This document shows positions 32,011 to 46,751 of a DNA stretch of 64,000 nucleotides, in pieces. This DNA comes from Pseudooceanicola sediminis (lineage in GTDB: Bacteria; Pseudomonadota; Alphaproteobacteria; Rhodobacterales; Rhodobacteraceae). The position numbers and the translations under genes are program-made. Below the pieces are notes generated by a model, which did not search any database, was not told where the DNA came from, and saw only the letters and a program-made list of their open reading frames with translations. The stretch spans positions 1-64,000 of the forward strand of contig NZ_QWJJ01000003.1 in NCBI RefSeq assembly GCF_003575965.1, written 5' to 3'. The stretch's first letter is position 1, and every line of letters begins with the position of its first letter.

Positions 32011-32271
32011 ATGCAGGACCCGGCACTTCGAACCCAGTCAAAGGGGCGTGATCTGAACGCGGCGGAGACAACCTTTGCCGCCGCACTGGAGCGCATCTAT
32101 GAAACCGGCTGCCACGATTTCGCGCAGGTGGTCGAGCAGTTGAACGCACGCGGTGATGCGCGCCCTTCGGGAGAGACGGGCGCATGGACGCTGGACATCT
32201 TCGAGGCCGAGCTGAAGGCGATCAATGCCAGCCATGATGCTGCCCATGCCGAACACGGCATCGGCGCCTGA
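32011..32271 (+). CDS. Small recombinase-HTH-like protein at head of the oxygenase operon
   Basis: This 86-residue protein starts at ATG 32011 with GAGG 5 bp upstream; an in-frame TTG at 31993 is less likely. The second half, FAQVVEQLNARGDARPSGETGAWTLDIFEAELKAI, resembles the helix-turn-helix 'Recombinase' segment of serine recombinases (LNARG-x-P-x-G-x-W), but there is no catalytic domain and it is far too short. Such stand-alone recombinase-like HTH proteins appear beside Rieske oxygenases in other proteobacteria as I recall. It lies 21 bp before the oxygenase gene. It could be a DNA-binding or a protein-contact subunit; function is unknown. Confidence 0.72.
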   Translation: MQDPALRTQSKGRDLNAAETTFAAALERIYETGCHDFAQVVEQLNARGDARPSGETGAWTLDIFEAELKAINASHDAAHAEHGIGA

Positions 32272-32292
32272 GATAAAGAGGGAGTGATCGAA

Positions 32293-33345
32293 ATGGACAG
32301 CGCAGCCAATACCCGCGACCGCGTCGACGAGTATATCAACCGCGGGCTTCGCGGCTTCTGGGTGCCGGTGGCGGTTTCCGTCTCGGTCAAGGTGGGCAAG
32401 CCTTTTGCCACCAAGATCGCCGGAGAGAACCTTGTCATGTGGCGCGATGGCGCGGGCAAGATCCGCTGCGTCGAGGATTTCTGTCCGCACCGCGGTGCCA
32501 AGCTGAGCCTGGGCGTGGTGCAGGAGGGCAATATCGCCTGCCGCTATCACGGTGTGATGGTCGATGGCACCGGCACCGTCGCCCGCGTGCCCGCCATGCC
32601 CGATTGCGCGCTTGAGGGCCGCAAGGCGCTGACCGCCTATTCGGTCGAGGAATGCGCCGGTGCCGTGTTCATCTATCTGCCGTCCGCCGACCGCCCCGAG
32701 GCGCCGCCGTTCGAGCCGCCGGTGGAATTCACCAATGGCGAATGGGAAGTCTTTCCCTGCATGACGCGGTGGGATTGTTCCTATCGTCTGAGCCTGGACA
32801 ACGCCGCCGACCCGATGCACGCGATCTACCTGCATTCGGACAGCTTTACCCTGCAATACGGCGCCAAGCAGGACACGATGAACCTGGAACGCACCGAAAA
32901 GGGTTTCCTGATCGAGCGGATGGGCCAGAAGGGCGTGAACCTGGACGAAACCGAAGTCGTGATGGACGAAGGCACGATGTTCTTTCGCCTGGACATCCCC
33001 TATCCCGACGGGGCCGGCCCGGGTGGCCCGTTCCGCATCATCGGCTTTGCCACGGCGATCGACGAACATACCCACCACAGCTTTTTCTGGCGCTGCCGTC
33101 AGGTTACCGGGCTGGCGGCCGAGAGCTGGCGTTTCCTGTACCGTGCCTATCTGGAGGACCGTCACTGGTTCGTGCTGGAGCAGGACCGCGTGATGCTGGA
33201 GAGCATTCCCGAAGACAGCCGCCGCCGCGAGATGCTGTATCAGCATGACATCGGCGTCAGCCGTCTGCGCCAGATGATGGTGCGGCGCGCGAAAGAGCAC
33301 TTCAAGGCGCTGGACGCCGCCGAGGCCGGGAAGAAGAGCGCCTGA
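32293..33345 (+). CDS. Rieske [2Fe-2S] non-heme iron oxygenase, alpha (catalytic) subunit
   Basis: This 350-residue protein, started at ATG 32293 after GAGGGAG, has a Rieske cluster site C64-x-H66 (FCPHRGA) and C83-x2-H86 (CRYHG). The mononuclear iron site is in SLDNAADPMHAIYLH (D173, H176, H181), with D298 in LEQDRVMLE as the carboxylate ligand and bridging Asp/Asn at 169/170. The length matches single-subunit (alpha3) monooxygenases/demethylases of the vanillate or phthalate type. It would hydroxylate or demethylate the imported substrate using electrons from a reductase. FprA-like reductase and flavodoxin genes are found ~11 kb downstream in the same gene train. Confidence 0.93.
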   Translation: MDSAANTRDRVDEYINRGLRGFWVPVAVSVSVKVGKPFATKIAGENLVMWRDGAGKIRCVEDFCPHRGAKLSLGVVQEGNIACRYHGVMVDGTGTVARVPAMPDCALEGRKALTAYSVEECAGAVFIYLPSADRPEAPPFEPPVEFTNGEWEVFPCMTRWDCSYRLSLDNAADPMHAIYLHSDSFTLQYGAKQDTMNLERTEKGFLIERMGQKGVNLDETEVVMDEGTMFFRLDIPYPDGAGPGGPFRIIGFATAIDEHTHHSFFWRCRQVTGLAAESWRFLYRAYLEDRHWFVLEQDRVMLESIPEDSRRREMLYQHDIGVSRLRQMMVRRAKEHFKALDAAEAGKKSA

Positions 33346-33983
33346 TGCCTGATGCGCTGATCCCGATGACGGCCGACGCGGTGAAGGAGGCCCTTGCGGC
33401 CCCCTTCGCGGCGGGCCAGGCGCTGGATCTGACAGGGCGGCAGGTGACCGGCGCGCTGGATCTGAGCGGCTGCACCCCCTGCGGGTTCGATCTGAGCGGC
33501 AGCACGTTCGAGGGGCCGGTGCGGCTGGATGGTGCAATGTTCCGGGGGCTGACGTGGTTTCGCCACTGCAAGTTTCTGGGGTCTGTCAGTGCGACGGGCG
33601 CTGTCTTTGCCCATGATGCGCGGTTCGACGGCGCAGCTTTCAGCCGAGATCTGACACTGAGCCGTGCGGAGGCGCGTGGCACGCTGGTGCTGGATAACGC
33701 GGTGCTGGAAGGCGATGCCTGGCTGGACCGGATGCAGATCCTCGGCAGCCTGTCGATGGCGGGCACGGTGTTCGGGGCGGCCGTCTCGCTCGACGCGACG
33801 GAGGCTTACGGCGGGCTTTGGGCCGACGATACCGAGTTTCGCGCCCGCGTGTCGGCGGCGGGCATGGAAGTTCACGGGCGCAACTGGTTGCGGGGGGTGC
33901 GGGTCGCTGCGCCATCTGCGATCGGGGCGCCGACACAGCCGCTGGCGCGGCAGATCCGCAGCTTTGGTTACATCTGGGGCTGA
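33345..33983 (+). CDS. Pentapeptide-repeat-like protein of unknown function
   Basis: This 212-residue protein overlaps the oxygenase stop (TGATG). From about residue 25 it is made of short strands with recurring (A/S/T)xLxLSGxxFxG-type units (ALDLSGCTPCGFDLSGSTFEGPVRLDGAMFRGLTWF, ARFDGAAFSRDLTLSRAEARG, SMAGTVFGAAVSLDATEAYGG), which suggests a right-handed beta-helix of the pentapeptide kind, though many units are imperfect. There is no signal peptide. Known pentapeptide proteins act as DNA mimics or scaffolds. Its place between the oxygenase and the ABC transporter genes, with translational coupling, suggests a partner or assembly role in this pathway. Confidence 0.72.
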   Translation: MPDALIPMTADAVKEALAAPFAAGQALDLTGRQVTGALDLSGCTPCGFDLSGSTFEGPVRLDGAMFRGLTWFRHCKFLGSVSATGAVFAHDARFDGAAFSRDLTLSRAEARGTLVLDNAVLEGDAWLDRMQILGSLSMAGTVFGAAVSLDATEAYGGLWADDTEFRARVSAAGMEVHGRNWLRGVRVAAPSAIGAPTQPLARQIRSFGYIWG

Positions 33984-34012
33984 ACGGACATGACAACACA
34001 GGGCAGACAGAC

Positions 34013-34792
34013 ATGACATCACGGCTGGATCTACAGAACATCACCAAGGTGTTCAGCGACCGCAAGACGGGAAATTCGGTCACGGCGGTGACGGACATGT
34101 CGTTTTCCGTGGCCCCCGGCGAACTGGTGGCCGTCGTCGGGCCGTCGGGATGCGGCAAGTCGACCATCCTGAACATGGTTTCGGGCCTGTATGGGCCGAC
34201 CGAGGGCCAGGTTCTGATCGACGGAGAGAAGGTGACGGGCACCCGCCCCGAAGTCGGCTTCATGTTGCAGAAGGATCTGCTGCTGCCCTGGCGCAGCATC
34301 GTCGAGAATGTCGAGTTCGGGCTGGAGGAAAAACCGTTCAACAAGGCGGAGCGGCGCAAGCGCGCCCTGGCGGAATTGCAGCGGATGCAGCTGGCCGATT
34401 TCGCAGACAGTTATCCGCACCAGCTGTCGGGGGGGATGCGGCAACGCGCGGCGCTGGCGCGCACCCTGGCCATCGAGCCTGAGCTGGTGCTGCTGGACGA
34501 GCCGTTTTCCGCGCTGGATGCGCAGACCAAACTGGTGTTGCAGCGCCATTTCGCCCGGACCATCGCGGATGCCGGGGTGACCTGTGTGCTGATCACCCAC
34601 GATCTGAACGAGGCCGTGATCATGTCGGACCGCGTGGTGGTCCTGTCAGGCCGCCCGGGCCGGGTGGTCGACGAATTCGAAATCGACCTGCCGCACCGCA
34701 CGGACCCGCTGCAACGCAGCCTTGAGCCGCAATGCGGTGTCTATGTGAAACGGCTGTTCGATGCGCTGCATCTGGAAAACGAAGACGCCTGA
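34013..34792 (+). CDS. ABC importer ATPase, SsuB/TauB/NrtD type
   Basis: This 259-residue ATPase starts MTSRLDLQNITKVF. It has Walker A VVGPSGCGKST, Q-loop MLQKDLLLPWRS, signature LSGGMRQRAALARTL, Walker B LVLLDEPFSALD and H-loop LITHDLNEAV. LPWRS and the SGGMRQR form are typical of nitrate/sulfonate/taurine/pyrimidine-precursor importers. It energises the SsuC-like permease encoded two genes downstream. A 155-bp gap with palindromic repeats lies between it and the binding-protein gene. Confidence 0.92.
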   Translation: MTSRLDLQNITKVFSDRKTGNSVTAVTDMSFSVAPGELVAVVGPSGCGKSTILNMVSGLYGPTEGQVLIDGEKVTGTRPEVGFMLQKDLLLPWRSIVENVEFGLEEKPFNKAERRKRALAELQRMQLADFADSYPHQLSGGMRQRAALARTLAIEPELVLLDEPFSALDAQTKLVLQRHFARTIADAGVTCVLITHDLNEAVIMSDRVVVLSGRPGRVVDEFEIDLPHRTDPLQRSLEPQCGVYVKRLFDALHLENEDA

Positions 34793-34820
34793 GGATGCAA
34801 CGCCTACGGCAGACGGAAAC

Positions 34821-34880: not shown

Positions 34881-34947
34881 ACCAAAACAATCTGAACAAG
34901 CTGACAACAGCGTAGACACCACCCCATACCAACCGGGAGTTATACTG

Positions 34948-35937
34948 ATGAAAATGACCTTCATGAAAGCCGCCGCAGTGGCGCTTTCGGCGCTGGTCGC
35001 CGTGCCTGCCGCGCAGGCCGCCGATCTGGAAAAGATGACCTATCTCTATCCTGCCCCCGATTTCCTGCCGGCGTTCACGCCGTTTCAGGTGGCACGGACC
35101 AAGGGCTATTACGAGGACGAAGGCCTGGACGTGAACTGGGTGATCGGCAAGGGCGGCGCTGATGTGGCCAAGCAGGTTGCTGTCGGCAACGCGGAACTGG
35201 GCGGCGGTATCGGCGATACGCCGATCATCGTGCGCGCCAACGGTCTGCCGGTCAAAGGTGTGCTGCTGATGGGCGGCAAGGCCCTGACGCAGATGGTCAT
35301 CCGCAGCGACAGCGGTGCGACCGACATGACCAGCCTGAAGGGCAAGAAGGTCGGCGTGATCGCCTATCAGGACACCACCTATTACAACCTGCTGGCTGCC
35401 CTGGCCGCCAATGGCATGACCAAGGAAGACATCGACATTCAGGCGGTCGGCGCCGGTGGCATGGTGCAACTGATGATCTCGGGCGACCTTGACGCGATCT
35501 CGGGCACGCCCGACTGGGCCGCGGCGATCGAGGGTGCGGGCGTCGACGTGGCGGTCCAGCCGATCAACGACATGTTCCCGGCCATGGCGCAGGCGGTCCT
35601 GACGTCGGAAGACACGATGAAGAACAAGCCCGAGGTCGTCACCGGTTTTGTCCAGGCGACGCTGCACGGCCTTAAGGACGTCATGACCGACCCCGAAGGC
35701 AGCGCCAAGCTGCTGGCCGAGTCGATCCCGCAATATGCGGGCAAGGAGGCGTTCCTGCTGGAAGTCATGAACCGCTACAACAGCCTGGTCTATGCGGTCG
35801 ACGACATGGACAGCCTTGGCACCTTTGACGAGGCGCGCATGAAGGCGGTTGCCGAATTCTACCTCGACGCGGGCATCGTGTCCTCGGTTGAGCCTGCTGC
35901 CGACTACTACTCCAACGACTTCGTGACGGCAGAATAA
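34948..35937 (+). CDS. ABC importer solute-binding protein, NMT1/SsuA/TauA-like
   Basis: This 329-residue protein has a Sec signal peptide (MKMTFMKAAAVALSALVAVPAAQA, then ADLEK). The ATG follows GGGAG at 8 bp. The fold signature is of NMT1/THI5-like binding proteins: LYPAPDFLPAFTPFQVARTKGYYEDEGLDVNWVIGKGGADVAKQVAVGNAELGGG, then LKGKKVGVIAYQDTTYYNLLAALAANG and IQAVGAGGMVQLMISGDLDAISGTPDWAAAI. Family ligands include sulfonates, pyrimidine precursors, riboflavin and small aromatic acids. As part of the oxygenase operon it probably captures the pathway substrate. Confidence 0.92.
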   Translation: MKMTFMKAAAVALSALVAVPAAQAADLEKMTYLYPAPDFLPAFTPFQVARTKGYYEDEGLDVNWVIGKGGADVAKQVAVGNAELGGGIGDTPIIVRANGLPVKGVLLMGGKALTQMVIRSDSGATDMTSLKGKKVGVIAYQDTTYYNLLAALAANGMTKEDIDIQAVGAGGMVQLMISGDLDAISGTPDWAAAIEGAGVDVAVQPINDMFPAMAQAVLTSEDTMKNKPEVVTGFVQATLHGLKDVMTDPEGSAKLLAESIPQYAGKEAFLLEVMNRYNSLVYAVDDMDSLGTFDEARMKAVAEFYLDAGIVSSVEPAADYYSNDFVTAE

Positions 35938-35939
35938 CA

Positions 35940-36824
35940 ATGAGTGTTACCGCGGAAGAAACCCTGACTGTGGAGCGGCCGGTGGGCCGCTCTGCCACGA
36001 AGCCTGGAAAGGATACCGGCGTGAGCGAGACGAAAGTAAACCCCGTCAAGGGGAATGGATCGCGCGCGACCTTAGAGGTCGGCATGATGGTGGGCTTTGG
36101 CCTGCTTTTCCTGGCGGTCTGGGAATTCCTGCCCCCGGCCCTGGGTGTTCCGCGGTACATCATCCCGACGTTTTCCCAGTGCATGGCCGAATTCGCCCGC
36201 ATGTGGGCACAGGAGGATCTGGGGCCGAACTTCATCTCGACGCTGATCTCCTCCATCGTCGGCTTTGGCCTGGGCGCATTGCTGGGCGCGGGTGCCGGGT
36301 ATCTGCTGGGCATGTCGAAGCTGTGGGAGCGGGTTCTGGCCCCCTATATCCTGGCGCTGCAAATCGCGCCCAAGGTGGCGTTCGCGCCGCTGTTCATCAT
36401 GTGGTTCGGCTATAATTCGATCCCGAAACTGCTGGTGACCGTTCTTATCGTCTTCTTCCCGATCCTGGTGAACGTGCTGCAAAGCATGAAGACCGTGGAT
36501 CAGGACCTGATGAACCTGGCGCGCGTCTATTCCATGAGCCGCTGGAAGATGTTCCTGAAGATCGAGCTGCCGTCGTCGCTGCCGCAGCTGTTCGCGGGTC
36601 TGCGGATTTCGTCCACCCTTGCCGTGATCGGTGTCACCGTGGGTGAACTGGTGGGCGGCAACACCGGCCTCGGCTTTCTGATCACCTATGGCGAGGGGCA
36701 GGCGAATACCGCGATGGTGTTCGATGCGATCATCTTGCTGACGATCATCGGCGTGGCGCTGTATTTCGCCGTCGCCGCCGTGGAAAAACGCGTGCTGCAT
36801 TACCTTGAGCGCAACGATGGCTGA
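35940..36824 (+). CDS. ABC importer permease, SsuC/TauC type
   Basis: This 294-residue protein starts 2 bp after the binding-protein stop. A hydrophilic ~45-residue N-terminus precedes six helices. The EAA-like loop is MNLARVYSMSRWKMFLKIELPSSLPQLFAGLRISSTLAVIGVTVGELVGGNTGLGF, a classic SsuC/TauC C-terminal pattern, and AKVAFAPLFIMWFGYNSIPK matches the family's central loop (APKVAFAPLFIMWFG). It forms a homodimeric channel with the SsuB-like ATPase. Confidence 0.92.
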   Translation: MSVTAEETLTVERPVGRSATKPGKDTGVSETKVNPVKGNGSRATLEVGMMVGFGLLFLAVWEFLPPALGVPRYIIPTFSQCMAEFARMWAQEDLGPNFISTLISSIVGFGLGALLGAGAGYLLGMSKLWERVLAPYILALQIAPKVAFAPLFIMWFGYNSIPKLLVTVLIVFFPILVNVLQSMKTVDQDLMNLARVYSMSRWKMFLKIELPSSLPQLFAGLRISSTLAVIGVTVGELVGGNTGLGFLITYGEGQANTAMVFDAIILLTIIGVALYFAVAAVEKRVLHYLERNDG

Positions 36825-37659
36825 TCTGGCGACAGATACGGTGTTTCAGCCCGGCACGGCAGCGGGGGTGAGTTACCTGCGCCGTGCGGGCCGGGGCCCC
36901 GTGCTGGTCTGCCTGCATGGCATCGGATCACGTGGCGACAGCTTTGCGCCGATGCTGCCCTATCTGCCCGGGGACTGGGACGTGATCGCGTGGAATGCGC
37001 CGGGGTATGGCGCATCCGCCCCCCTGGACGCCGACTGGCCGGTCGAGGGCGATTATGCGGCGTCCCTGCTGGGGATGCTGGAGGCGCTGTCGCTGGGGCG
37101 GGTGACCCTGCTGGGGCATTCGCTGGGGACGCTGATGGCGGCGCGCTTTGCCGCCGATCACCCTGGCCGGGTCGACGCGATGGTGCTGGGCGCCTGTGCC
37201 TGCGGTCATGGCGGCGCGGTCGGGCAATTGTCCGACGCTGCCGCCGACCGGCTGAGCGCGCTTGAGAGCGAGGGCGCGGCGGCCTTTGCCGCCAAGCGTG
37301 CGCCGCGTCTGCTGGCCGATCCGGTGGGGCACGCGGAGGCGTTGGCGCGGGTCGAGCGCGCGATGGCGGCGGTCACGATGCCCGGCTACGGGCAGGCGGT
37401 GCGGATGCTGGCCTCGGGGAGGCTGGAGGCCAGCCTGGCCGAGGTGCGCGTGCCGACGGGCCTGATCTGGGGGGCGGGCGACGTGGTGACCCCACGCGCC
37501 CAGACCGACCGGGCGGCCACCGCGCTGCAAGGGCGCGCGCCCTTGCGGGTGATCGAGACCGCGGGCCATGCCCTGCACGCAGAGGCCCCGGAGGCGTTTG
37601 CCGGGGCGCTGAAAGAGATCCTGTCCGAACTGGACCAACCTGACACGAGGACGACATGA
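36817..37659 (+). CDS. Alpha/beta-fold hydrolase (meta-cleavage-product-hydrolase-like)
   Basis: This 280-residue protein is started at ATG 36817 overlapping the permease stop by 8 bp; an in-frame TTG at 36805 is less likely. It has an oxyanion HG motif in VLVCLHGIGSRGDSF, the nucleophile elbow LGHSLGT (S102), an acidic residue in LIWGAGDVVTP and the catalytic His in IETAGHALHAEAPEAF. The family includes C-C bond hydrolases such as BphD/TodF that act right after extradiol ring cleavage. An extradiol dioxygenase gene follows at once with a 4-bp overlap, so that role is the favoured inference, but esterase or lactonase activity is equally possible by sequence. Confidence 0.85.
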   Translation: MADLATDTVFQPGTAAGVSYLRRAGRGPVLVCLHGIGSRGDSFAPMLPYLPGDWDVIAWNAPGYGASAPLDADWPVEGDYAASLLGMLEALSLGRVTLLGHSLGTLMAARFAADHPGRVDAMVLGACACGHGGAVGQLSDAAADRLSALESEGAAAFAAKRAPRLLADPVGHAEALARVERAMAAVTMPGYGQAVRMLASGRLEASLAEVRVPTGLIWGAGDVVTPRAQTDRAATALQGRAPLRVIETAGHALHAEAPEAFAGALKEILSELDQPDTRTT

Positions 37660-38588
37660 GCGAGATCATCAGAGCAGGGCACCTGCGCGGCATCGTGATG
37701 CGGGCGCCCGGCATGACCAGCACCGTGAAATTCTATGAAAACAGCTGGGGCCTGAGCGTCGCGAAAGAGGCGGATGGCGTTGTCTACCTGCGCGGCACGG
37801 GACGCGAACCGTTCATCTATGCGCTGAAGGACGGCAAGGATTACGGTATCGAGTATATCCACATGGGGATGCCCGACCGCGCCGGGATCGACGCGCTGCA
37901 TGCGCAGGTCCTCGACAAGGGCGCGCATGTGCTGGGCAGCCCGGCAGTGTTCGACGATGCCATCGGCGGCTACGGCTTTGAAATGCTGGACCCCGATTTC
38001 CGCCGCTTGCGCTTTACCTGCGACCTGGAAATGCTGGAGCCGGTGGAGCGTTTCGCCTACCCGCAGAAGATCACGCATTGCGTGCTGAACACCCCCGACA
38101 TGGACGGCGTCGAGGCATGGTATCGGGATGTTCTGGGCTTTCGCATTTCTGATTATTCGGCGGATCAGATGGTATTCCTGCGCGCCGCGGCGGACGTGGA
38201 AGAGGGCGCGGACCATCATTGCATCGCGCTGGTGCGGGCGCCCTATGCCAGCGTCAATCACGTCGCCTTTGAGACCGGCAGCATCAATGCCTACATGCGC
38301 TCGATCGGGCGGATGCGGCAGAATGGTGTCGTGCCGTCATGGGGGCCGGGCCGCCATGGGCCGGGCGACAATTGTTTCGCCTATTTCGTGTCGCCGTCGG
38401 GCTTCGTGATCGAATTCACGTCCGAAGTGCAGAAGATTGACGAGATGACGCACGAACCGCAGGTCTGGCCGCGCGACGATCCCGAGAAGATGGACCAGTG
38501 GATGACCGCAGGACCGCCGACGGCGGCGCAACGCGCGGTGATGATGGGCCGCCCCGACCCGGGCTTTCCGCCCTCCAACGGGGAGTGA
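37656..38588 (+). CDS. Type-I extradiol ring-cleavage dioxygenase (VOC superfamily)
   Basis: This 310-residue protein has two VOC modules (about residues 8-125 and 137-262). The second carries the complete 2-His-1-Glu iron site: H141 in KITHCVLNTPDMDGVEAWY, H202 in SVNHVAFET and E253 in GFVIEFTSE. The first module is degenerate, as is usual for BphC/XylE-like enzymes. It probably cleaves a catechol-like diol or a hydroxylated heteroaromatic ring. It lies between the alpha/beta hydrolase and an SDR gene in the oxygenase operon. The conserved D-H-H-C segment (GADHHCIALV) near residue 186 may hold the catalytic acid-base His. Confidence 0.88.
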   Translation: MSEIIRAGHLRGIVMRAPGMTSTVKFYENSWGLSVAKEADGVVYLRGTGREPFIYALKDGKDYGIEYIHMGMPDRAGIDALHAQVLDKGAHVLGSPAVFDDAIGGYGFEMLDPDFRRLRFTCDLEMLEPVERFAYPQKITHCVLNTPDMDGVEAWYRDVLGFRISDYSADQMVFLRAAADVEEGADHHCIALVRAPYASVNHVAFETGSINAYMRSIGRMRQNGVVPSWGPGRHGPGDNCFAYFVSPSGFVIEFTSEVQKIDEMTHEPQVWPRDDPEKMDQWMTAGPPTAAQRAVMMGRPDPGFPPSNGE

Positions 38589-38592
38589 TCTG

Positions 38593-39384
38593 GTGGATCT
38601 GGGACTGACAGACAAGACGGTCGTGGTGACGGGTGCGTCTTCTGGCATCGGGCTGGCGGCGGTGCGGCAGCTGCTGGAGGAGGGCGCGAATGTCGCGCTC
38701 TGTGCCCGCGGGGCCGAGCGGCTGGCCGCCGTCGCGGAGGAGCTGGGCGCCGAATTCGGGTCCGGGCGCATTCTGGCGCAGCCCGTCGACGTGCTGAACG
38801 AGGCGGCGGTGAACGGCTTTGCCGAGGCGGTCGCGCAGCGCTTTGGCGGCGCGGTTGCGCTGATCAACAATGCCGGGCAGGGGCGGGTGTCGACGTTTGC
38901 CGATACCGACGACCAGGCCTGGCGTGATGAACTGGAACTGAAGTATTTCAGCCAGATCCGCCCCGTGCGCGCCTTTCAGGACATGCTGGCGGCCAGCGGG
39001 CAGGGCGCGATCGCCGCGACCAATTCGCTGCTGGCCTATCAGCCAGAACCGCATATGGTCTGCACCTCTTCGGCCCGCGCCGGGGTGCAGAGCCTGCTGA
39101 AATCGCTGTCGGTCGAACTGGCCCCGGCGATCCGCGTCAACTCGATCCTCGTCGGTCTTGTCGATTCAAACCAGTGGCAACGCCGCTTCGAGGCAAGGGA
39201 AGATCAGGGCCAGTCGCGCGACGACTGGTTCGGTGCCCTTGCTGCAAAAAAGAAAATCCCACTTGGCCGTCTTGGCAAACCCGAGGAGGCAGCGCGCGCG
39301 CTGGTCTTCCTCGCCAGCCCGGCTGCGTCCTATATCACAGGAGCTCAAATTGAAATCTCTGGCGGCGTTTCACGATACATCTGA
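38593..39384 (+). CDS. SDR-family protein with atypical active site (Thr/Arg in place of Tyr/Lys)
   Basis: This 263-residue protein has a GTG start at 38593. The nucleotide motif TGASSGIG (13-20) and NNAG (92-95) are intact and a Ser (S145) is present. But aligning TSSARAGVQSLLKSL with the usual YSASKAAV...L places T158 and R162 at the catalytic Tyr and Lys. Ends with FLASPAASYITGAQIEISGGVSRYI, a normal SDR C-terminus. Such TxxxR SDRs are a recognisable subset whose chemistry is unclear; they may bind cofactor but not catalyse the usual carbonyl reduction. It precedes the ThDP enzyme gene by one base. Confidence 0.85.
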   Translation: MDLGLTDKTVVVTGASSGIGLAAVRQLLEEGANVALCARGAERLAAVAEELGAEFGSGRILAQPVDVLNEAAVNGFAEAVAQRFGGAVALINNAGQGRVSTFADTDDQAWRDELELKYFSQIRPVRAFQDMLAASGQGAIAATNSLLAYQPEPHMVCTSSARAGVQSLLKSLSVELAPAIRVNSILVGLVDSNQWQRRFEAREDQGQSRDDWFGALAAKKKIPLGRLGKPEEAARALVFLASPAASYITGAQIEISGGVSRYI

Positions 39385-39385: not shown

Positions 39386-41077
39386 ATGGCCATTGCACAG
39401 CCTGTCACCCCCGCAGAGCCGGAAATTGTCGGCGACCTGATTGCCGAGGCGCTGGCCGACCTTGGCGTGACTACCCTGTTCGGGGTGATCTCGATCCACA
39501 ACATGCCGATCCTGGATGCCATTGCGCGCCAGGGCCGCATCCGTTTCGTGCCCGCACGCGGCGAGGCGGGGGCAATGAACATGGCCGACGCCTATGCCCG
39601 TGTCTCGGGTAGTCTGGGCGTGGTCATGACCTCGACCGGTACCGCTGCGGGTTACGCCGCCGGCGGTCAGGTCGAGGCGCTGACGGCGGGCAGCCGTGTG
39701 CTGCACATCACCACGCAGGTCGATACGAAATTCGCCGACCGCGATCGTGCGCCGATCCACGACGTGCCGACGCAGCGCGAGATGCTGAAAGGCATCTCCA
39801 AGGCCGTGTTCCGCATCTGGGACAATCACGCGACGCTTGGCACCCTGAAAGCGGCGGTGAGCGCGGCGTTGTCCGCGCCCTCCGGTCCCGTCAGCATCGA
39901 AGTGCCGGTGGACGTGCAGCGTATGCCCGTTGCGGGTCGCGCCAAGATCGGCAAGCCCGCCGTGGTGAAACCGATTGCGGACCAGTCCGAGATCGAGGCG
40001 CTGGCCGCGCGCATCATGGCCGCCAAACGCCCGATGATCTGGCTGGGTGGTGGCGCCAAGGGCGCCGAGGAGGCCGCAACCGCGCTGGTCAATCGCGGTA
40101 TCGGTGCCGTCACCTCGACCAATGGGCGTGGTGTGGTGCCGGAGGACCATCCGGCAACACTGGGGGCGTTCAACATGACGCCCCATGCGATCCGCCTGTA
40201 CGAAAGCTGTGACCTGATGGTGGTCGTCGGGTCGCGCCTGCGCGGCAACGAAACCAAGGACAACGCCATGCCGCTGCCGCCGATCTGCCAGATCGACGCC
40301 GAGGCCAGCCAGGGCGGGCGCAACTATCCGGTCGACATGATGATCCATGGCGATGCCGCCGACACGCTGGACCGGGTGTTGGCGCTGCTGCCGGAAAAAC
40401 TGGATACCGACCCGAACCTGCGTCATGAAATTGCCGTCGCCCGTGCCACGGCCGAGGGCGAGATGCGGGCGATGCTGGGGCCGTACCGTACGGTCGCGGA
40501 TGCTTTGCAGGAACGCGTTCTTCCGGGGCGTCACCCCTGGGTGCGGGACGTGACGATCACCAATTCGACCTTCGGAAACCGCTATGTGCAGATTGCCGAG
40601 CCGCGCCTGGGCGTACATGCGCTTGGCGGTGGCATCGGACAGGGCATCGCGATGGGTATCGGGGCCGCACTTGCCTCGCTCGAAAAGCCCGGCGCGCCCA
40701 AGGCGATCACTCTGGTCGGGGATGGCGGCGCGATGCTGAGCATTGCCGAGCTGATCACCGCCGTGCAGGAAGAGGCCCCGCTGGTCTACGTGTTGATGAA
40801 CGACGCGGCCTACGGCGTGATCCAGAACATCCAGGACGCGCAATACGACAGCCGTCGTCATTATTCGGCGCTCAACACGCCCGACTTTGGCAAATTGTGC
40901 GATGCTGTGAACCTTCCGCACATGCTGGTGTCGGACATCAAGGAGTTCGCATCGGCGCTGGACGCGGCCATCGCGCGGCCCGGTCCGGTTGTCCTCGAAG
41001 TCGACATGTGCGCCATCGGTCCCTATGCGCAGTCCTTTGCCGGGCCGCCCGCCGGTGCGGCCGGCAAGGCAGAGTGA
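39386..41077 (+). CDS. Thiamine-diphosphate-dependent enzyme (acetolactate synthase/decarboxylase-like)
   Basis: This 563-residue protein starts at ATG 39386, 1 bp after the SDR stop. Three ThDP-enzyme domains are visible. The N-terminal PYR domain holds the catalytic glutamate in FVPARGEAGAMNMADAYARVSG. The central domain has MIWLGGGAKGAEEA. The C-terminal PP domain has GDGGAMLSIAELITAVQEE and NDAAYG (the GDG-N metal/ThDP motif, with MND where NN is usual). The family does 2-keto acid decarboxylation or carboligation. FAD binding as in acetolactate synthase cannot be shown. In this operon it probably decarboxylates a 2-oxo acid derived from ring cleavage. Confidence 0.9.
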   Translation: MAIAQPVTPAEPEIVGDLIAEALADLGVTTLFGVISIHNMPILDAIARQGRIRFVPARGEAGAMNMADAYARVSGSLGVVMTSTGTAAGYAAGGQVEALTAGSRVLHITTQVDTKFADRDRAPIHDVPTQREMLKGISKAVFRIWDNHATLGTLKAAVSAALSAPSGPVSIEVPVDVQRMPVAGRAKIGKPAVVKPIADQSEIEALAARIMAAKRPMIWLGGGAKGAEEAATALVNRGIGAVTSTNGRGVVPEDHPATLGAFNMTPHAIRLYESCDLMVVVGSRLRGNETKDNAMPLPPICQIDAEASQGGRNYPVDMMIHGDAADTLDRVLALLPEKLDTDPNLRHEIAVARATAEGEMRAMLGPYRTVADALQERVLPGRHPWVRDVTITNSTFGNRYVQIAEPRLGVHALGGGIGQGIAMGIGAALASLEKPGAPKAITLVGDGGAMLSIAELITAVQEEAPLVYVLMNDAAYGVIQNIQDAQYDSRRHYSALNTPDFGKLCDAVNLPHMLVSDIKEFASALDAAIARPGPVVLEVDMCAIGPYAQSFAGPPAGAAGKAE

Positions 41078-41082: not shown

Positions 41083-41886
41083 ATGCATCTGGGACTGATC
41101 GGATACGGCAACATCGCGACCCTGCTGCCACGGATACTGGGCCAGCAGGGCGCCTTGCCGTCCCGCATAGACGTGCTGGTGCGCCCCGGGCGCGCCAGTG
41201 CTGCCCGCGCGGCCTTCGGGGATATCGCCGTGACGGTGCATGAGGACACCGGCGCGTTCATCGCTACGGCCCCGTCGCTGGTGGTCGAGGCCGCGACGCA
41301 CGCGGCGGTGAAAACCTCGGTGCTGGAGTGCCTTCGGGCAGGTCTGCCGGTGCTGATCGTGTCGGTCGGCGCATTGGCCGATGCGGCATTGGAAACGGCG
41401 GTGCGCGAGGCCGCCGAGGCGGGCCATACGCAGGCGCATCTTTCCAGCGGCGCGGTCGGCGGGATCGACATGCTGGCCGCGGCGCGCCTGTCGGGCATCA
41501 CCTCAGTGACCTATACCTCTCGCAAGCCGCCGATGGCGTGGCGCGGCACCCCCGCCGATGACGCGCTGGACCTGCCGGGCCTGACGCAGGCCACGACCTT
41601 TTACGAAGGCACCGCACGCCAGGCCGCCACCGATTATCCCAAGAACGCCAATGTCGCGGCCACCATCGCGCTGGCCGGGGCAGGGTTCGAGGCAACGCAG
41701 GTGCGCATGGTCGCGGATCCGACCGTCACGGCCAATATCCACGAATTCACCGTACGCTCCGGCGCGCTCGACTTCACGGTCACGCTTGAGGGGAAACCTT
41801 CGCCCGAAAACCCGAAAACCTCCGTTTCGACGGTTTACGCGCTGGCGCGGACGGTCCTGAACCAGACCGCCCCGATCACCGTTTGA
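41083..41886 (+). CDS. Aspartate-dehydrogenase-family (NadX-like) oxidoreductase
   Basis: This 267-residue protein has an NAD(P) motif LIGYGNIA at the N-terminus and ends with VADPTVTANIHEFTVRSGALDFTVTLEGKPSPENPKTSVSTVYALARTVL, the diagnostic end of L-aspartate dehydrogenase with its catalytic His and PENPKTS stretch. The central HLSSGAVGGIDMLAAARL also matches. Housekeeping members make iminoaspartate for NAD synthesis, but no nadA/nadC is nearby. Family members in catabolic operons probably act on imino or amino acids. Together with RidA at the operon start it points to a nitrogenous intermediate. Confidence 0.88.
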   Translation: MHLGLIGYGNIATLLPRILGQQGALPSRIDVLVRPGRASAARAAFGDIAVTVHEDTGAFIATAPSLVVEAATHAAVKTSVLECLRAGLPVLIVSVGALADAALETAVREAAEAGHTQAHLSSGAVGGIDMLAAARLSGITSVTYTSRKPPMAWRGTPADDALDLPGLTQATTFYEGTARQAATDYPKNANVAATIALAGAGFEATQVRMVADPTVTANIHEFTVRSGALDFTVTLEGKPSPENPKTSVSTVYALARTVLNQTAPITV

Positions 41887-41893
41887 GGATGCC

Positions 41894-43396
41894 ATGAAAG
41901 ACATGACCCACGCCCTGCCTGATGGCCGCCTTTTCGTCGCTGGCGAATGGGAGGACGGCACAGGCGCTGAAATCACTTCGACCTACCCGCATGACGGGTC
42001 GCTGAACATGGCGTTCAAGGGGGCCTCGCGGGCCGATGGGGAACGCGCGATTGCGCGGGCCAAGCTGGCGCAGGCCGATCCCGCGTGGCGGGGGATGCTG
42101 CCGCATGTGCGCGCACGCCTGCTGCATCGGATTGCCGACGGGATCGAGGCGAACATCGACCGCATTTCCTATGTGCAAAGCCGCGATACCGGCAAGACAC
42201 GTGGTGAGACGGCGGCGCTGGCGGGTTCGGCCGTGGGCACATTCCGCTATTTCGCGGCGGTGCTGGAAACCGCGGATGATGCGCTGACGGCGCGCCGCGC
42301 CACGGCGCTGACGGCCAGCGTGCATGAACCGATCGGCGTGGTCGCGGCGATCACACCGTGGAATTCGCCCATTGCCTCGGACGCACAGAAACTTGCCCCG
42401 GCGCTGGCGGCGGGCAATGCGGTGCTGCTGAAACCGTCGAGCTGGTCACCGATGGTCAGCTTGGTGCTGGCCGAAATCTGCGAAGAGGCGGGCCTGCCCA
42501 AAGGGTTGCTTTCGGTGCTGCCCGGCGCGGGACGCGAGGTCGGCAACCTGCTGGTCGAACACCGCGAGATCGGGCGCGTCGCCTTTACCGGCGGTACGGT
42601 GACGGGGCGGCGGCTGGCGGCGCAGGCGGGCGAAAAGCTGATGCCCGTTTCGTTGGAATTGGGGGGCAAATCCCCGACCATCGTGTTTGAGGATTGCGAT
42701 CGCAAACTGGCGATTGCCGGTATCCTGTTCGGCATCTTCTCCTCCTCCGGGCAAAGCTGCATCGCCGGGTCGCGCCTGTTCGTGCAACGCGCGATCTATG
42801 ACGATTTCGTGGCCGAGCTGGTGGCGGCGACAAAGGCGCTGATCGTCGGTGCGCCCGATGATCCGGCAACGCAGGTCGCACCGATGATCTGTGCCGAGCA
42901 CCGCGACAGCGTCGAGGCCTATATCGAGATGGCAAAGGCCGAGGGCGGCCAGATCCTCTGCGGTGGGACGCGCCCTGCGGGCGAGGCCCTGTCGCAGGGC
43001 AGCTACCTGATGCCGACCATCATTGCCGGCCTGAGCAATGACGCGCAGGTCTGCCGGGAAGAGATCTTTGGCCCCGTCCTGGTGGTCTTGCCGTTCGAGG
43101 ACGAGGCAGACGTCATCGCCATGTCGAACGACAACGATTATGGTCTGGCCTGCGGTATCTGGACCCGCGACTTTCCCCGCGCCTGGCGTCTTGCCGAGGC
43201 GATCCGGGCGGGCACCGTCTGGATCAACACTTACAAGCAATTTTCGATCTCGACGCCGTTTGGCGGCGACGGGGCCTCTGGCATGGGGCGCGAAAAGGGC
43301 CGCGACGGCCTGCGGGTCTGGCAGCGGCAAAAGGGGATCTACGCGGACCTGACCGGGCAACCGCACCCCTGGGCACGAATTGAAGGACAGTCATGA
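41894..43396 (+). CDS. Aldehyde dehydrogenase (NAD(P)+-dependent)
   Basis: This 500-residue ALDH superfamily protein has the N-terminal FVAGEWEDG, the catalytic asparagine in ITPWNSP, LELGGKSP with the general-base Glu, SSGQSCIAGSR with the nucleophilic Cys, EEIFGPVL and the final FGGDGASGMGREKG. It oxidises an aldehyde to an acid. In a pathway with extradiol cleavage and RidA it could be a 2-hydroxy- or 2-aminomuconic semialdehyde dehydrogenase, but the sequence alone does not decide. It overlaps the SDR gene that follows by 4 bp. Confidence 0.92.
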   Translation: MKDMTHALPDGRLFVAGEWEDGTGAEITSTYPHDGSLNMAFKGASRADGERAIARAKLAQADPAWRGMLPHVRARLLHRIADGIEANIDRISYVQSRDTGKTRGETAALAGSAVGTFRYFAAVLETADDALTARRATALTASVHEPIGVVAAITPWNSPIASDAQKLAPALAAGNAVLLKPSSWSPMVSLVLAEICEEAGLPKGLLSVLPGAGREVGNLLVEHREIGRVAFTGGTVTGRRLAAQAGEKLMPVSLELGGKSPTIVFEDCDRKLAIAGILFGIFSSSGQSCIAGSRLFVQRAIYDDFVAELVAATKALIVGAPDDPATQVAPMICAEHRDSVEAYIEMAKAEGGQILCGGTRPAGEALSQGSYLMPTIIAGLSNDAQVCREEIFGPVLVVLPFEDEADVIAMSNDNDYGLACGIWTRDFPRAWRLAEAIRAGTVWINTYKQFSISTPFGGDGASGMGREKGRDGLRVWQRQKGIYADLTGQPHPWARIEGQS

Positions 43397-44136
43397 TGTT
43401 GAACGGACGTAATATTCTGGTGACGGGGGCCGGGGGCGGCCTTGGGCGCGACATCGTGTTGGCCTGTGGTCGGGCTGGGGCGCATGTCATCCTGTCGGAT
43501 TTCAACGAAGAGCTGGGGGTGGCCAGCCTTGCCGCGCTGAAAGAGGCCGGCGGCAGCGGAGAGCTGCGCCTTGCCGATCTGTCCGACCCGGCCTCCATCG
43601 CCGCGCTTGGTGCTGGTCTGGACGGCCCTCTGCACGGACTGATCAACAACGGAGCGATTGCCACGGGCATCGGCGGTATCGGGTTTCGTGACATCGACAT
43701 CGCGGTCTGGGACAAGGTGATGCAGGTCAACGTCCGCGGCACCTGGCTGATGATCCGCGCCTGTTCGGATGCGCTGATCGCGTCGGGGTCGGGGCGGGTG
43801 GTGAACCTTGCGTCCGATACCGCCCTTTGGGGCGCGCCGAACCTGCTGACCTATACCTCGTCCAAGGGGGCGATCATGGCGATGACTCGCAGCCTGGCCC
43901 GCGAATTGGGACCGGATCAGGTGGGCGTGACCGCGATCGCGCCCGGTATCCTGACGACCGAGAGCACGGAATATGTGCCGCAGGCGCGCCATGACCTGTA
44001 CGAAACGGGCCGCGCCGTGCCGGGCAAGCAGGGCACGGGCGACGTGGCTGCGGTTGCCGCCTTTCTTGTTTCGCCACCCGCGATCACGCTGACCGGGCAG
44101 ACCATGCCGGTCGACAACGGTTTCGTGTTCAACTGA
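43393..44136 (+). CDS. Short-chain dehydrogenase/reductase (classical)
   Basis: This 247-residue classical SDR has NAD motif TGAGGGLG, NNGA (usual NNAG variant), active-site Ser in NLASDTALWG and the intact YTSSK catalytic pair. It also has typical IAPGILTTE and GQTMPVDNGFVFN at the end. The start is the first of two adjacent ATGs and overlaps the ALDH stop. It probably oxidises an alcohol or dihydrodiol to a ketone or catechol in the pathway. The contrast with the upstream SDR gene, which lacks Tyr/Lys, suggests the two have different jobs. Confidence 0.9.
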   Translation: MMLNGRNILVTGAGGGLGRDIVLACGRAGAHVILSDFNEELGVASLAALKEAGGSGELRLADLSDPASIAALGAGLDGPLHGLINNGAIATGIGGIGFRDIDIAVWDKVMQVNVRGTWLMIRACSDALIASGSGRVVNLASDTALWGAPNLLTYTSSKGAIMAMTRSLARELGPDQVGVTAIAPGILTTESTEYVPQARHDLYETGRAVPGKQGTGDVAAVAAFLVSPPAITLTGQTMPVDNGFVFN

Positions 44137-44151
44137 AGGGAGCGCCGCGTC

Positions 44152-45456
44152 ATGCCTAAGATCGCCATTGTCGGAGCGGGGCCTTCGGGTTGCTACGTCG
44201 CGCAGGCGCTGCTCAAGCTCGACAAGACGCTGGAGGTCGATATCCTCGACCGGCTGCCGGTGCCATACGGGCTGGTACGCTATGGCGTGGCACCCGACCA
44301 TCAGGGCACCAAGGCGGTATCGCGCCAGTTTGCGCGGCTGTTTGAACGGCAGGGCGTGCGCTTTATCGGCAACGTGACACTGGGTGAAACGGTGACGCTG
44401 GACGAGCTGCGGGCGGCCTACGACGTCGTGGTGCTGGCACTTGGCCTGTCAAAGGACCGCGAGCTGGATCTGCCCGGGCGCGATCTGGCCGGGATCACCG
44501 GAGCAGGTGCCGTGACGCGACACTGGAACGACCACCCCGACGAAGCCGCCCAGGTGCCGCACCTCGGAAACCGTGTCGTCATCGTGGGGCAGGGGAACGT
44601 GGCGATGGATGTATTGCGCATCCTTGCCAAGCAGGAGCCGGATTTCGACGGATCGGACCTGCATCCGCGCCACACCGATCACATCACCGGCGCGGGCGTC
44701 GCGCAGATCGACATCCTGGGCCGGTCGCCGGCGCATGAGGCCAAGTTCGATCCCGTCATGGTCAAGGAGCTGGCCAAGCTGGAGCATGTGCGCTTTGCGC
44801 TGGATGGGATCGAGCTGTCACAGGGGCACGACGATGATCCCCGCGTCGCCGCCGTGACCGCGCTGCCGCAGGACGTTCCCGTGGCCAGTCACGAGGTGAC
44901 CTTCCGCTTTGGTTGGAAGCCTGAGCGGCTGAGCGGCGAAGAGGGCCGTGTGAGCGCGGCCTACTTCAGCCGGGGCGACGAGGAGCTGGGCCTGTCGTGT
45001 GACAGCGTCATCACCGCCATCGGCTTTGACAGCCACATCCCCGGACTGCGCGACGATCTGCTGGCGCAGGCCGAGGATCGTGAAACCGGCGTGGTGGACA
45101 AGGGGCTGTACCTGGCCGGCTGGTTCTGTCGGGGCCCGAGAGGCACGATTCCCGATAATCGCCTTGCAGCGCAGGATCTTGCGACCCGCATTGTCGCGGA
45201 TCTTGCCACTGGACAGGCCACTGGGCAGACCACCGGGCAGGCCACTGGGCAGGGCGGTGAAAAACCGGGCCGCGCCGCGCTGGTCGCGACCCACCCGGAC
45301 CTGACCGATTACGACGGCTGGCTGCGCATCGACGCGGCGGAACTGGCGGCTTGCACTGACGGACGGGTCAGGGCAAAGGTCGCCGATCTTGAGACACTGC
45401 TGGCCCTGGCCTGTGCCCCGGCACCCGGCCCAGCAACACCGGAGACCGATGAATGA
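44152..45456 (+). CDS. Adrenodoxin-reductase-like (FprA-type) NADPH:ferredoxin/flavodoxin reductase
   Basis: This 434-residue flavoprotein has FAD motif IVGAGPSGCYVAQAL, the diagnostic RLPVPYGLVRYGVAPDHQGTK, NADP-binding VVIVGQGNVAMDVLRIL, ELDLPGRDLAGI and late GWFCRGPRGTIPDNR. This arrangement is that of adrenodoxin reductase/FprA, not the smaller plant-type FNR that normally serves Rieske oxygenases. A linker of four TGQ repeats (ATGQATGQTTGQATGQ) lies around residue 355, encoded by a 12-bp tandem repeat. Its stop overlaps the flavodoxin start, so the two form an NADPH -> FAD -> FMN electron chain for the Rieske oxygenase. Confidence 0.92.
   Translation: MPKIAIVGAGPSGCYVAQALLKLDKTLEVDILDRLPVPYGLVRYGVAPDHQGTKAVSRQFARLFERQGVRFIGNVTLGETVTLDELRAAYDVVVLALGLSKDRELDLPGRDLAGITGAGAVTRHWNDHPDEAAQVPHLGNRVVIVGQGNVAMDVLRILAKQEPDFDGSDLHPRHTDHITGAGVAQIDILGRSPAHEAKFDPVMVKELAKLEHVRFALDGIELSQGHDDDPRVAAVTALPQDVPVASHEVTFRFGWKPERLSGEEGRVSAAYFSRGDEELGLSCDSVITAIGFDSHIPGLRDDLLAQAEDRETGVVDKGLYLAGWFCRGPRGTIPDNRLAAQDLATRIVADLATGQATGQTTGQATGQGGEKPGRAALVATHPDLTDYDGWLRIDAAELAACTDGRVRAKVADLETLLALACAPAPGPATPETDE
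45205..45252 (+). repeat. 12-bp tandem repeat, four copies, inside the reductase gene
   Basis: Units of GCCACTGGGCAG run from 45205 to 45252; copies 2 and 4 are identical and the others differ at one or two bases. The unit length is a multiple of three, so copy-number change would alter linker length without a frameshift. Confidence 0.85.
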
Positions 45457-45914
45457 AAATTCAACTGCTGTATGGCACCGAGACCGGCAATGCCGAAATG
45501 CTGTGCGAAGATATCGAAACCCACCTGGCAGACGATCACGAGGTCGCCTTGGCCAATCTGAATGATATCGATCCTGCCGATCTGGATGCAGATACCTTTC
45601 ACCTTGTGGTCTGTTCGACCTACGGCGATGGCGATCTGCCTGCCTCGGCACAACCATTTGCAGATACGCTCGAGACGGCCGGGACAGATCTGTCCGCGAT
45701 CCGTTTCGCCATCTTCGGGCTGGGTGACAGCAGCTACGAGACGTACAATCAGGGGTCGGAAAAACTGGCCGCGCTGTTGGTGAAGCATGGGGCGAAACAG
45801 GTGGGCGATCGCGCCATCCACGATGCAATGGGGTCGGACATGGCCGAAGACCTGGCATTGCCCTGGGCCGATGACCGGATCGCGCAAGCCGCTGACCTGT
45901 TCGCGGAAACCTGA
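45453..45914 (+). CDS. Flavodoxin (MioC/CPR-FMN-domain type)
   Basis: This 153-residue protein has the FMN phosphate loop GTETGNAEM (about 8-16), CSTYGDGDLPASAQPF and FGLGDSSYETYNQGSEKL, the pattern of single-domain flavodoxins related to MioC and cytochrome-P450-reductase FMN domains. Very acidic overall, as expected for an electron carrier. It overlaps the reductase gene by 4 bp. No ferredoxin is encoded in the operon, so this flavodoxin is the likely electron donor of the Rieske oxygenase, an uncommon arrangement. Confidence 0.9.
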   Translation: MKIQLLYGTETGNAEMLCEDIETHLADDHEVALANLNDIDPADLDADTFHLVVCSTYGDGDLPASAQPFADTLETAGTDLSAIRFAIFGLGDSSYETYNQGSEKLAALLVKHGAKQVGDRAIHDAMGSDMAEDLALPWADDRIAQAADLFAET

Positions 45915-45941
45915 ACAGACATAACCCCCGAGGGCCCGGAT

Positions 45942-46751
45942 ATGAGCGACGAAACAGAAGAAAAAACAACGCTCTATACGGTGCCGCCGGTGACGCGCGC
46001 CATCAAGGTGCTGCGGCATGTCGGGGCAGGGCATGGCTGCATCAACATCAGCCAGACCTCCAAGACGCTGGGGATCAACCGCACCACCTTGATCCGGCTG
46101 CTGAATACGCTGGCCGAGGAACGGATGATCGAATGGGTGGATGACGCGCGCGGCTATGCCCTGGGCGTCGGTCTGCTGGGGTTGGCGGCCGAGGCGCTGT
46201 CGAACCGGGACATCCTGCGGGCGGCGCGGCCCCGGCTGGCCGCGCTGGCCCGGCGCACGCACCTGTCGGCGCACCTTGGGGTGCTGGATGGGCGGGACGT
46301 GGTATACCTGCTGCGCGAGGTCCCCGAGGCCCGTCTGGTCAGCAATGTTCGCGAAGGCACCCGCCTGCCAGCCCATGCCACGACCATGGGGCGCATGTTG
46401 CTGGCCCATCTGAGCGAGCCCGAGTTGTTCGGGCTCTACACCGGCAAGGCCATGCCGGAATATTCAGCCGCCACAGCGACTTCGCCCGAAGAGCTGCACC
46501 GCCAGTTGCAGCAGGACCGTGCCCGCGGCATCGTCTGGAGCGACGAGAATTTCGAACCGATGATCGGGTCCTGCGCCTGTCCCGTCCGCGATCATGCGGG
46601 CAAGGTGATCGCGGCGATCAACCTGTCGGGGTCGAATTCCGATTTCACACCGGGTACGGAGCAGGCCGAGCTGAACGCCGCTGCCATCCGCGCCTGCGCT
46701 GCCGAGATTTCCGAGGCATTGGGATGGCGCGCGCCGCAGGTCGCGGGCTGA
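45942..46751 (+). CDS. IclR-family transcriptional regulator of the oxygenase operon
   Basis: This 269-residue protein has an N-terminal winged helix (AIKVLRHVGAGHGCINISQTSKTLGINRTTLIRLLNTLAEERMIEW) and an IclR effector domain with HLGVLDGRDVVYLLREVPEARLVSNVREGTRLPAHATTMGRMLLAHL and a CACPVRDHAGKVIAAINLSG end. IclR members often control aromatic-acid pathways. It closes the 15-gene plus-strand train, 27 bp after flavodoxin, and converges with the tetR gene 29 bp further on. It probably senses the pathway substrate or an intermediate. Confidence 0.9.
   Translation: MSDETEEKTTLYTVPPVTRAIKVLRHVGAGHGCINISQTSKTLGINRTTLIRLLNTLAEERMIEWVDDARGYALGVGLLGLAAEALSNRDILRAARPRLAALARRTHLSAHLGVLDGRDVVYLLREVPEARLVSNVREGTRLPAHATTMGRMLLAHLSEPELFGLYTGKAMPEYSAATATSPEELHRQLQQDRARGIVWSDENFEPMIGSCACPVRDHAGKVIAAINLSGSNSDFTPGTEQAELNAAAIRACAAEISEALGWRAPQVAG

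Follow-up and report, generated by a model that had tools for sequence, protein, structure and literature searches.

A run of 16 plus-strand genes in Pseudooceanicola sediminis, at positions 32011–46751 of a 64,000-nucleotide stretch of contig NZ_QWJJ01000003.1 (hereafter the window), is a real, widely conserved and apparently uncharacterised catabolic operon for which kynurenate is the best-supported substrate. We consider the chances evenly balanced that its role is the uptake and breakdown of kynurenate (4-hydroxyquinoline-2-carboxylate) or of a closely related quinoline-2-carboxylate. Open reading frames and their translations also place a divergent minus-strand gene pair at 31171–31898. 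Family assignments were obtained by Pfam and NCBIfam scans of the translated open reading frames, and these agreed with every enzyme class named in an earlier reading made from the sequence alone (the sequence-only reading), which had described a complete operon of fifteen plus-strand genes mostly joined by overlaps. The count proved to be one short; an HTH_62 and a pentapeptide-repeat gene had gone unnamed. Overlaps are found at five of the 15 junctions, less than that description had suggested, with gaps of 1–29 nt at nine others and of 155 nt at one. The operon is also not quite complete, as recurrent cupin and flavin adenine dinucleotide (FAD) monooxygenase genes sit further along this contig, outside the window.

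A check of conserved synteny revealed that the operon is kept as a block, with the same families together in many other genomes, which supports the earlier proposal of an operon for import, ring hydroxylation and extradiol cleavage with its own electron chain. The gene set recurs in Rhodobacterales, Hyphomicrobiales, Roseomonas, Burkholderiales, Acinetobacter and Klebsiella, and also in Vibrio (without a Rieske gene in the available stretch), marine gammaproteobacteria and Streptomyces. The nearest named relative, Pseudooceanicola sp. HF7 (locus L086), has an identical gene order. For named genomes, gene presence was scored by tblastn at 1e-10 in the best 80 of at least 579 confirmed places, many of them cut by contig ends. 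In these 80 named loci we detected the atypical short-chain dehydrogenase/reductase (SDR) SDR1 in 78, aspartate dehydrogenase (AspDH) in 69, the alpha/beta hydrolase in 68, any VOC dioxygenase in 61, aldehyde dehydrogenase (ALDH) in 55, any cupin in 54, the Rieske protein in 53, the second SDR (SDR2) in 50, HTH_62 in 48, the FAD monooxygenase in 37, and FprA and flavodoxin in 24 each. A protein search of a plasmid collection with the thiamine diphosphate (ThDP) enzyme returned 29 records; 11 of the 12 examined bear a recognisable cluster, the exception being Variovorax SRS16. Some of these clusters are partial: that of Vibrio shows no Rieske gene in the available stretch, and that of Caballeronia pNK84 no AspDH. 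Within the window's class, 32 of 385 genomes have a ThDP match at 1e-60. Among the 31 relatives besides the window's own, 12 lie inside a cluster and 19 (L060–L078) have no cluster in the available stretch, some of these being short contigs; the latter appear to form a paralogous family. SDR1 was matched at 1e-60 in ten of 198 sampled genomes of the window's family (nine at 430 bits or more), and no match was found in the sole other sampled genome of its genus. The cluster is a patchy trait.

The destruction of kynurenate by bacteria was described biochemically in the 1960s, and the classical bacterial 'quinoline pathway' is reportedly the work of Hayaishi and co-workers, who are cited for it in PMC5610271 and PMC11354673. 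This route proceeds through the 7,8-dihydrodiol, 7,8-dihydroxykynurenate, and the oxopropenyl-, oxopropyl-, formylethyl- and carboxyethyl-4,6-dihydroxypicolinates. It is uncommon for an extradiol product to be decarboxylated next by a ThDP enzyme and then oxidised by an aldehyde dehydrogenase, and this sequence of steps is that of the kynurenate route. All six families of this route share one locus here: a ring dioxygenase, a diol dehydrogenase, an extradiol enzyme, a reductase, a 2-oxo acid decarboxylase and an aldehyde dehydrogenase. The same six enzyme functions are needed by the classical pathway, and the operon gene set fits its step order, the reactions themselves being predicted; beyond the classical pathway, the operon adds an importer, AspDH, a cupin, HTH_62 and a flavodoxin chain. 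An N-heterocyclic substrate, as raised in the sequence-only reading, is also the one preferred here. Some intermediates of the kynurenate pathway are named in the parts available of PMC11364965, PMC10543884 and PMC8778235, and those of PMC5610271 state that kynurenate degradation had been suggested in Pseudomonas fluorescens and cite a paper on 7,8-dihydroxykynurenic acid. Our search of the literature, which misses most subscription journals, found no genes for the classical kynurenate pathway and, as the earlier reading had held, no described pathway with this gene set.

Gene identity, co-occurrence and the metal and cofactor motifs described below are direct observations; from these we infer the substrate and the assignment of every step. 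Kynurenate would be taken up by the ABC importer, encoded (like all operon genes, on the plus strand) by an ATPase gene (34013–34792; PF00005), a gene for an SsuA/NMT1-like substrate-binding protein (34948–35937; PF09084, with TIGR01728 below cut-off) and a permease gene (35940–36824; PF00528). The Rieske oxygenase alpha subunit (32284–33345; PF00355 and PF19112, VanA_C), a proposed kynurenate 7,8-dioxygenase, would then form the 7,8-dihydrodiol, with electrons passing from an FprA/adrenodoxin-reductase-like NAD(P)H reductase (44152–45456; best solved match FprA 1lqt, 177 bits) and a flavodoxin (45453–45914; PF00258). A CxH...CxxH motif at residue 67, a DxxHxxxxH iron motif at 176 and the PF00355 match mark it as a Rieske non-haem iron oxygenase alpha subunit, whose best solved relative is carbazole dioxygenase (87 bits). 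SDR2 (43393–44136; PF13561), a candidate cis-dihydrodiol dehydrogenase, would convert the dihydrodiol to 7,8-dihydroxykynurenate; it carries the classical YxxxK pair as YTSSK at residue 154, and its gene comes right after the Rieske gene in many relatives.

Ring cleavage is assigned to the VOC extradiol dioxygenase (37656–38588; PF00903), a proposed 7,8-dihydroxykynurenate 8,8a-dioxygenase whose product would be 5-(3'-carboxy-3'-oxopropenyl)-4,6-dihydroxypicolinate. The full H141/H202/E253 iron site pointed out in the earlier reading is present and does not vary in an alignment of VOC proteins (16 of 16), four of which belong to a second VOC form; the two forms are only 23–25% identical. The protein thereby has the 2-His-1-Glu site of type I extradiol dioxygenases, from which cleavage of a catechol is predicted; its nearest NCBIfam model, HpaD, and catechol 2,3-dioxygenase score below cut-off. 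SDR1 (38593–39384; PRK07062 above cut-off), a proposed oxopropenyl side-chain reductase, would saturate the side-chain C=C bond, the ThDP enzyme (39386–41077; PF00205/02775/02776, PRK07064 above cut-off) would decarboxylate the resulting 2-oxo acid side chain to an aldehyde, and the aldehyde dehydrogenase (41894–43396; PF00171) would oxidise this formylethyl side chain to give 5-(2'-carboxyethyl)-4,6-dihydroxypicolinate. The expected motifs were found in the window proteins for the alpha/beta hydrolase, ALDH (ELGGK, GQSC), Rieske protein, ThDP enzyme (the Glu in RGEAG; GDG...ND) and SDR2. The label 'two SDRs' in the earlier reading was confirmed and hid the character of SDR1, in which neither Tyr nor Lys occupies the YxxxK position in any of the 101 aligned rows, which represent 98 distinct sequences. 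C, A or T stands in place of the Tyr and A or L in place of the Lys, near an invariant Gln-Pro-Glu and Arg; two rows contain an unrelated, out-of-register YQPEK eight residues before the catalytic position. SDR1 does not have the pair that defines a classical SDR and belongs to a conserved SDR subfamily (PRK07062) without YxxxK at the catalytic position. Since this holds for all 98 distinct sequences, its annotation as an oxidoreductase is only tentative.

We regard AspDH as the key clue to the mechanism. The window protein (41083–41886) contains PF01958 and PF03447 domains, scores above cut-off for NF009828/NF009827 and for PRK13303 models, and can be assigned to the AspDH family, with its activity predicted. 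The AspDH of the Klebsiella pneumoniae cluster (locus L047) is approximately 41% identical to it, and, compared by eye, the primers given in the available part of PMC5554190 agree with the L047 protein at its two termini, making it very likely that this is the K. pneumoniae enzyme assayed there. According to the same part of that paper, the enzyme aminates oxaloacetate with NADPH at 26.5 U/mg and deaminates aspartate at 3.42 U/mg (PMC5554190). From these activities, we expect a pathway whose last steps lie close to iminosuccinate, oxaloacetate or aspartate. We infer a lower half that would satisfy this expectation. The cupin encoded outside the window and the alpha/beta hydrolase (36817–37659; PF00561, with GHSLG and GHALHAEAP motifs), which is proposed for the ring-opening step or a ring-opened one, would open the pyridone, a beta-dicarbonyl. 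Hydrolysis of the carboxyethyl compound between C4 and C5 would yield N-glutaryl-aminofumarate, hydrolysis of its amide would release glutarate and aminofumarate (a tautomer of iminosuccinate), and AspDH would capture iminosuccinate as L-aspartate. The lower half balances (C9H9NO6 + 2 H2O = C5H8O4 + C4H5NO4). Solved relatives of the hydrolase include meta-cleavage-product hydrolases and, among the weaker ones, alpha-(N-acetylaminomethylene)succinate hydrolase (49 bits), an enzyme that cleaves an N-acyl enamine similar to the proposed intermediate.

We also compared the electron chains of related loci. A Rieske match is present in 72 of 104 annotated loci, of which 25 have FprA with flavodoxin, 13 a PDR-type reductase and seven a ferredoxin/BphA4-type set (one of the seven being the reductase only); 27 have none in the available stretch, and two kinds of chain together were found in none of the 72. 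Across loci, the three electron chains substitute for one another. The first gene of the operon encodes the small HTH_62 'recombinase-like' protein (32011–32271; PF20552), a regular neighbour of the Rieske gene. PF20552 matches were found in 29 of 398 genomes of the phylum, and in 15 of these, including that of the window, the gene stands alone (frame of 83–129 aa, score of at least 40 bits). A Rieske gene of the operon's kind lies within the fetched surroundings of all 14 of the other standalone genes, and the HTH_62 protein is therefore probably an oxygenase partner rather than a recombinase. Two longer, recombinase-sized HTH_62 frames (L210, L211), used as a contrast, have none of the cluster's genes nearby; this comparison of neighbourhoods excludes G464, a short frame below the family cut-off, and the remaining long frames. 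Among the named loci, HTH_62 is detected at 1e-8 in 52 of 80, and where the Rieske match exceeds 40% identity (53 loci) it is missing from only three, all short contigs.

Beyond the window, on the same contig, are a minus-strand cupin gene (70457–71401; 80% identical to the Nitratireductor copy) and a minus-strand match to the FAD monooxygenase (73389–74540; 65% identical to the Mameliella copy), the latter spanning one TAG and containing an open frame of 375 aa; matches to IclR are found close to both. In 36 of its 37 named loci the FAD monooxygenase is at least 55% identical, and tropone and 6-hydroxynicotinate monooxygenases are the solved proteins that best match the Nitratireductor copy. 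Other modules vary. The importer is of the ABC, MFS or TRAP type depending on the locus; a sulfatase of at least 50% identity occurs in ten named loci, mostly alongside TRAP genes and frequently accompanied by the FAD monooxygenase; and genes for a xanthine dehydrogenase (XDH)-type hydroxylase adjoin clusters L050, L083, L087, L112, L165 and L207. Under the kynurenate scheme, the FAD monooxygenase, sulfatase and molybdenum hydroxylase of relatives would be entry branches for xanthurenate, its sulfate and quinaldate. In three loci of marine gammaproteobacteria (L129, L134 and L145, one labelled SUP05), the cluster is a compact gene run that follows TRAP permease and sulfatase genes. Locus L083, on plasmid pNK84 of Caballeronia sp. 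NK8, is a second cluster in that strain and contains ferredoxin, HTH_62, Rieske and ThDP genes together with a third VOC, an XDH-type hydroxylase and a CoxG-like protein.

Genomic context offered further tests of the substrate. Tryptophan 2,3-dioxygenase is encoded in nine of the 15 genomes in which HTH_62 stands alone, against 98 of the other 383 (Fisher p=0.006, uncorrected for relatedness), a weak association. Kynureninase-like genes lie near the cluster at L134 and L145, from two related marine gammaproteobacteria, and at L212 (G568), which was chosen for its nearby tryptophan dioxygenase, dioxygenase and kynureninase-like genes are found approximately 10 kb from the core. Such kynurenine genes beside clusters are suggestive only.

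Several observations weigh against the kynurenate assignment. Neither tryptophan dioxygenase nor the PF04199 cyclase/formamidase finds a match in the genome of the window, so kynurenate would need to be imported. Kynureninase-like genes were found in none of the 212 scanned loci, many of them short or not clusters, besides L134, L145 and the preselected L212. As a sign of a glutarate product, we considered a gene pair for a CoA transferase and an acyl-CoA dehydrogenase next to the Pseudosulfitobacter cluster, and the test was negative: the best solved matches of the dehydrogenase are other acyl-CoA dehydrogenases (292 bits), with the glutaryl-CoA dehydrogenase groups at 200 and 128. No close copy of this pair was found at other clusters, nor were glutarate genes found beside clusters. 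AspDH, at the cut-off used, is missing from seven of 50 loci with full flanks. Loci L057–L059 contain HTH_62, Rieske, cupin, hydrolase, SDR1 and ThDP genes (with an ABC importer in L057 and L058) and a CADD-like (PF14518/PF03070) protein, and have no match to SDR2, VOC, AspDH or ALDH. The molybdenum hydroxylase of L083 is nearer to 4-hydroxybenzoyl-CoA reductase than to quinoline oxidoreductase. Finally, the kynurenate scheme leaves the roles of the HTH_62 and pentapeptide-repeat proteins, the RidA-like protein and its 118-residue neighbour U118 (see below) unexplained, as well as that of the cupin. Separately, inspection by eye placed cobalamin-synthesis-like genes after the CADD-like protein in L057.

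Among other explanations, the one we take most seriously, though we think it unlikely, is that the same module logic acts on another bicyclic heteroaromatic acid, such as a hydroxy- or sulfo-conjugated quinoline, an indole acid or a plant or algal aromatic, with kynurenate merely related. The entry modules do differ from locus to locus: of the 80 named loci, 37 have the FAD monooxygenase, 13 a TRAP permease, 11 a sulfatase and three the XDH large subunit. The low identity between the two VOC forms could mean two substrates. However, a terminal AspDH calls for a ring whose breakdown yields a C4 amino-dicarboxylate, and a ring nitrogen adjacent to a carboxylated carbon fits this. An aromatic amino acid route appears improbable. 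There, extradiol cleavage of 2,3-dihydroxyphenylalanine and C–C hydrolysis would release L-aspartate for oxidation by AspDH, a scheme that would accommodate the meta-cleavage-product hydrolases among the relatives of the hydrolase, the below-cut-off resemblance of the VOC protein to HpaD and catechol 2,3-dioxygenase, and the AspDH activity of a relative. It would leave the ThDP enzyme, ALDH, SDR1 and cupin unaccounted for; neither the operon nor the tables for the Klebsiella and Acinetobacter clusters include a dienoate hydratase or aldolase, and the Klebsiella AspDH is quicker in amination, with NADPH. The homoprotocatechuate (Hpa) pathway is similar in that the VOC protein is nearest to HpaD and the ALDH close to HpaE, both below cut-off; its isomerase, decarboxylase, hydratase and aldolase set is not in the operon, which instead has a ThDP enzyme and AspDH.

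The sequence-only reading had proposed an amino-muconate-like intermediate deaminated by RidA, and this part of its interpretation, unlike the import, hydroxylation and cleavage operon, was not supported; we consider it very improbable. As it stated, genes for RidA (31171–31545; PF01042) and a 118-aa protein lie on the minus strand, RidA-like genes recur with the cluster in some lineages, and the ALDH resembles 2-hydroxymuconic semialdehyde dehydrogenase, as it does HpaE, below cut-off. The active-site Arg of RidA has a canonical catalytic role, and all eight of the aligned RidA-like sequences carry A or S at its position, so that the protein does not appear to qualify as a canonical imine deaminase. 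Its nearest solved relative, P. aeruginosa PA3499 (2ig8, 59 bits), has S at this position, and the two other solved RidA relatives shown have R; we take PA3498–PA3514 to be a related region. Moreover, RidA was detected, at the cut-offs used, in only seven of 80 named loci and does not appear in the gene tables for the Klebsiella and Acinetobacter clusters. The adjacent conserved protein U118 (31542–31898, minus strand; nine-sequence alignment) has no Pfam or NCBIfam match and is present in ten of 80 named loci. A predicted model (pLDDT 77.8) suggests a ferredoxin-like alpha+beta fold, and Foldseek returned no match to it at E<=0.001.

Least probable of all, to the point of being barely credible, is a lumichrome/riboflavin (Lum)-type pathway. 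Both systems have Rieske, extradiol, ThDP decarboxylase and cupin components and sometimes a molybdenum hydroxylase, and the Lum pathway of Nocardioides simplex shares this logic on an N-heterocycle, as described in the sections covered of PMC12746152. It differs in having a P450, alpha/beta Rieske subunits, a split ThDP enzyme and other hydrolases (PMC12746152 and PMC12752717, in part), and aspartate dehydrogenase, which the operon has, was not found in the Lum pathway sections covered of PMC12746152. Membership in the Lum group was rejected, with the P450 LumU, an alpha/beta Rieske protein and the split LumK/LumL all missing among the operon genes, as are a LumD-kind second oxygenase subunit and the pyrimidine-ring hydrolase set.

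The clusters of Acinetobacter baumannii (L046) and K. pneumoniae (L047) share the Rieske protein, SDR2, second-form VOC, hydrolase, SDR1, AspDH, ALDH and ThDP enzyme with the window, but have a Rieske ferredoxin, a BphA4-type reductase and an MFS carrier in place of FprA, flavodoxin and the ABC importer. A. baumannii genes A1S_0954 and A1S_0956–0958, whose equation with the L046 cluster relies on their product names alone, are up 2–4 fold with mucin, and the passages available assign no pathway to them (PMC5757984). The remaining operon genes encode the pentapeptide-repeat protein (33345–33983; PF13576), present in 28 of 80 named loci, and an IclR-family regulator (45942–46751; PF01614 and PF09339). 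Elsewhere in the window, positions 46781–55963 hold a separate amine/guanidine cluster with a TetR regulator and a polyamine-type binding protein, and, by eye, permeases, an ATPase, an ALDH, and agmatinase-like and ornithine-cyclodeaminase-like proteins. The region at 13204–24184 contains, by eye, LysR and GntR regulators and amidohydrolase, mandelate-racemase-like, DapA-like, TRAP importer and epimerase-like genes, a set resembling a sugar-acid catabolic cluster.

Among the products of tryptophan, kynurenate and xanthurenate are widespread. Receptors for kynurenate are listed in the available part of PMC5610271. Tentatively, and with rather less than even confidence, we propose that the operon represents the missing genetic basis of a kynurenate/xanthurenate breakdown common to soil, marine and host-associated bacteria. 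This proposal would comprise a new ring opening to glutarate and iminosuccinate, the latter converted by AspDH to aspartate; an SDR without YxxxK that may reduce a C=C bond; and a Rieske oxygenase that has a newly recognised HTH_62 partner and interchangeable electron chains, including flavodoxin. If true, it would make a kynurenate pathway traceable in any genome, would explain the AspDH genes found within catabolic clusters, and would provide a function for conserved genes labelled so far in general terms only (PRK07062, PRK07064 and HTH_62).

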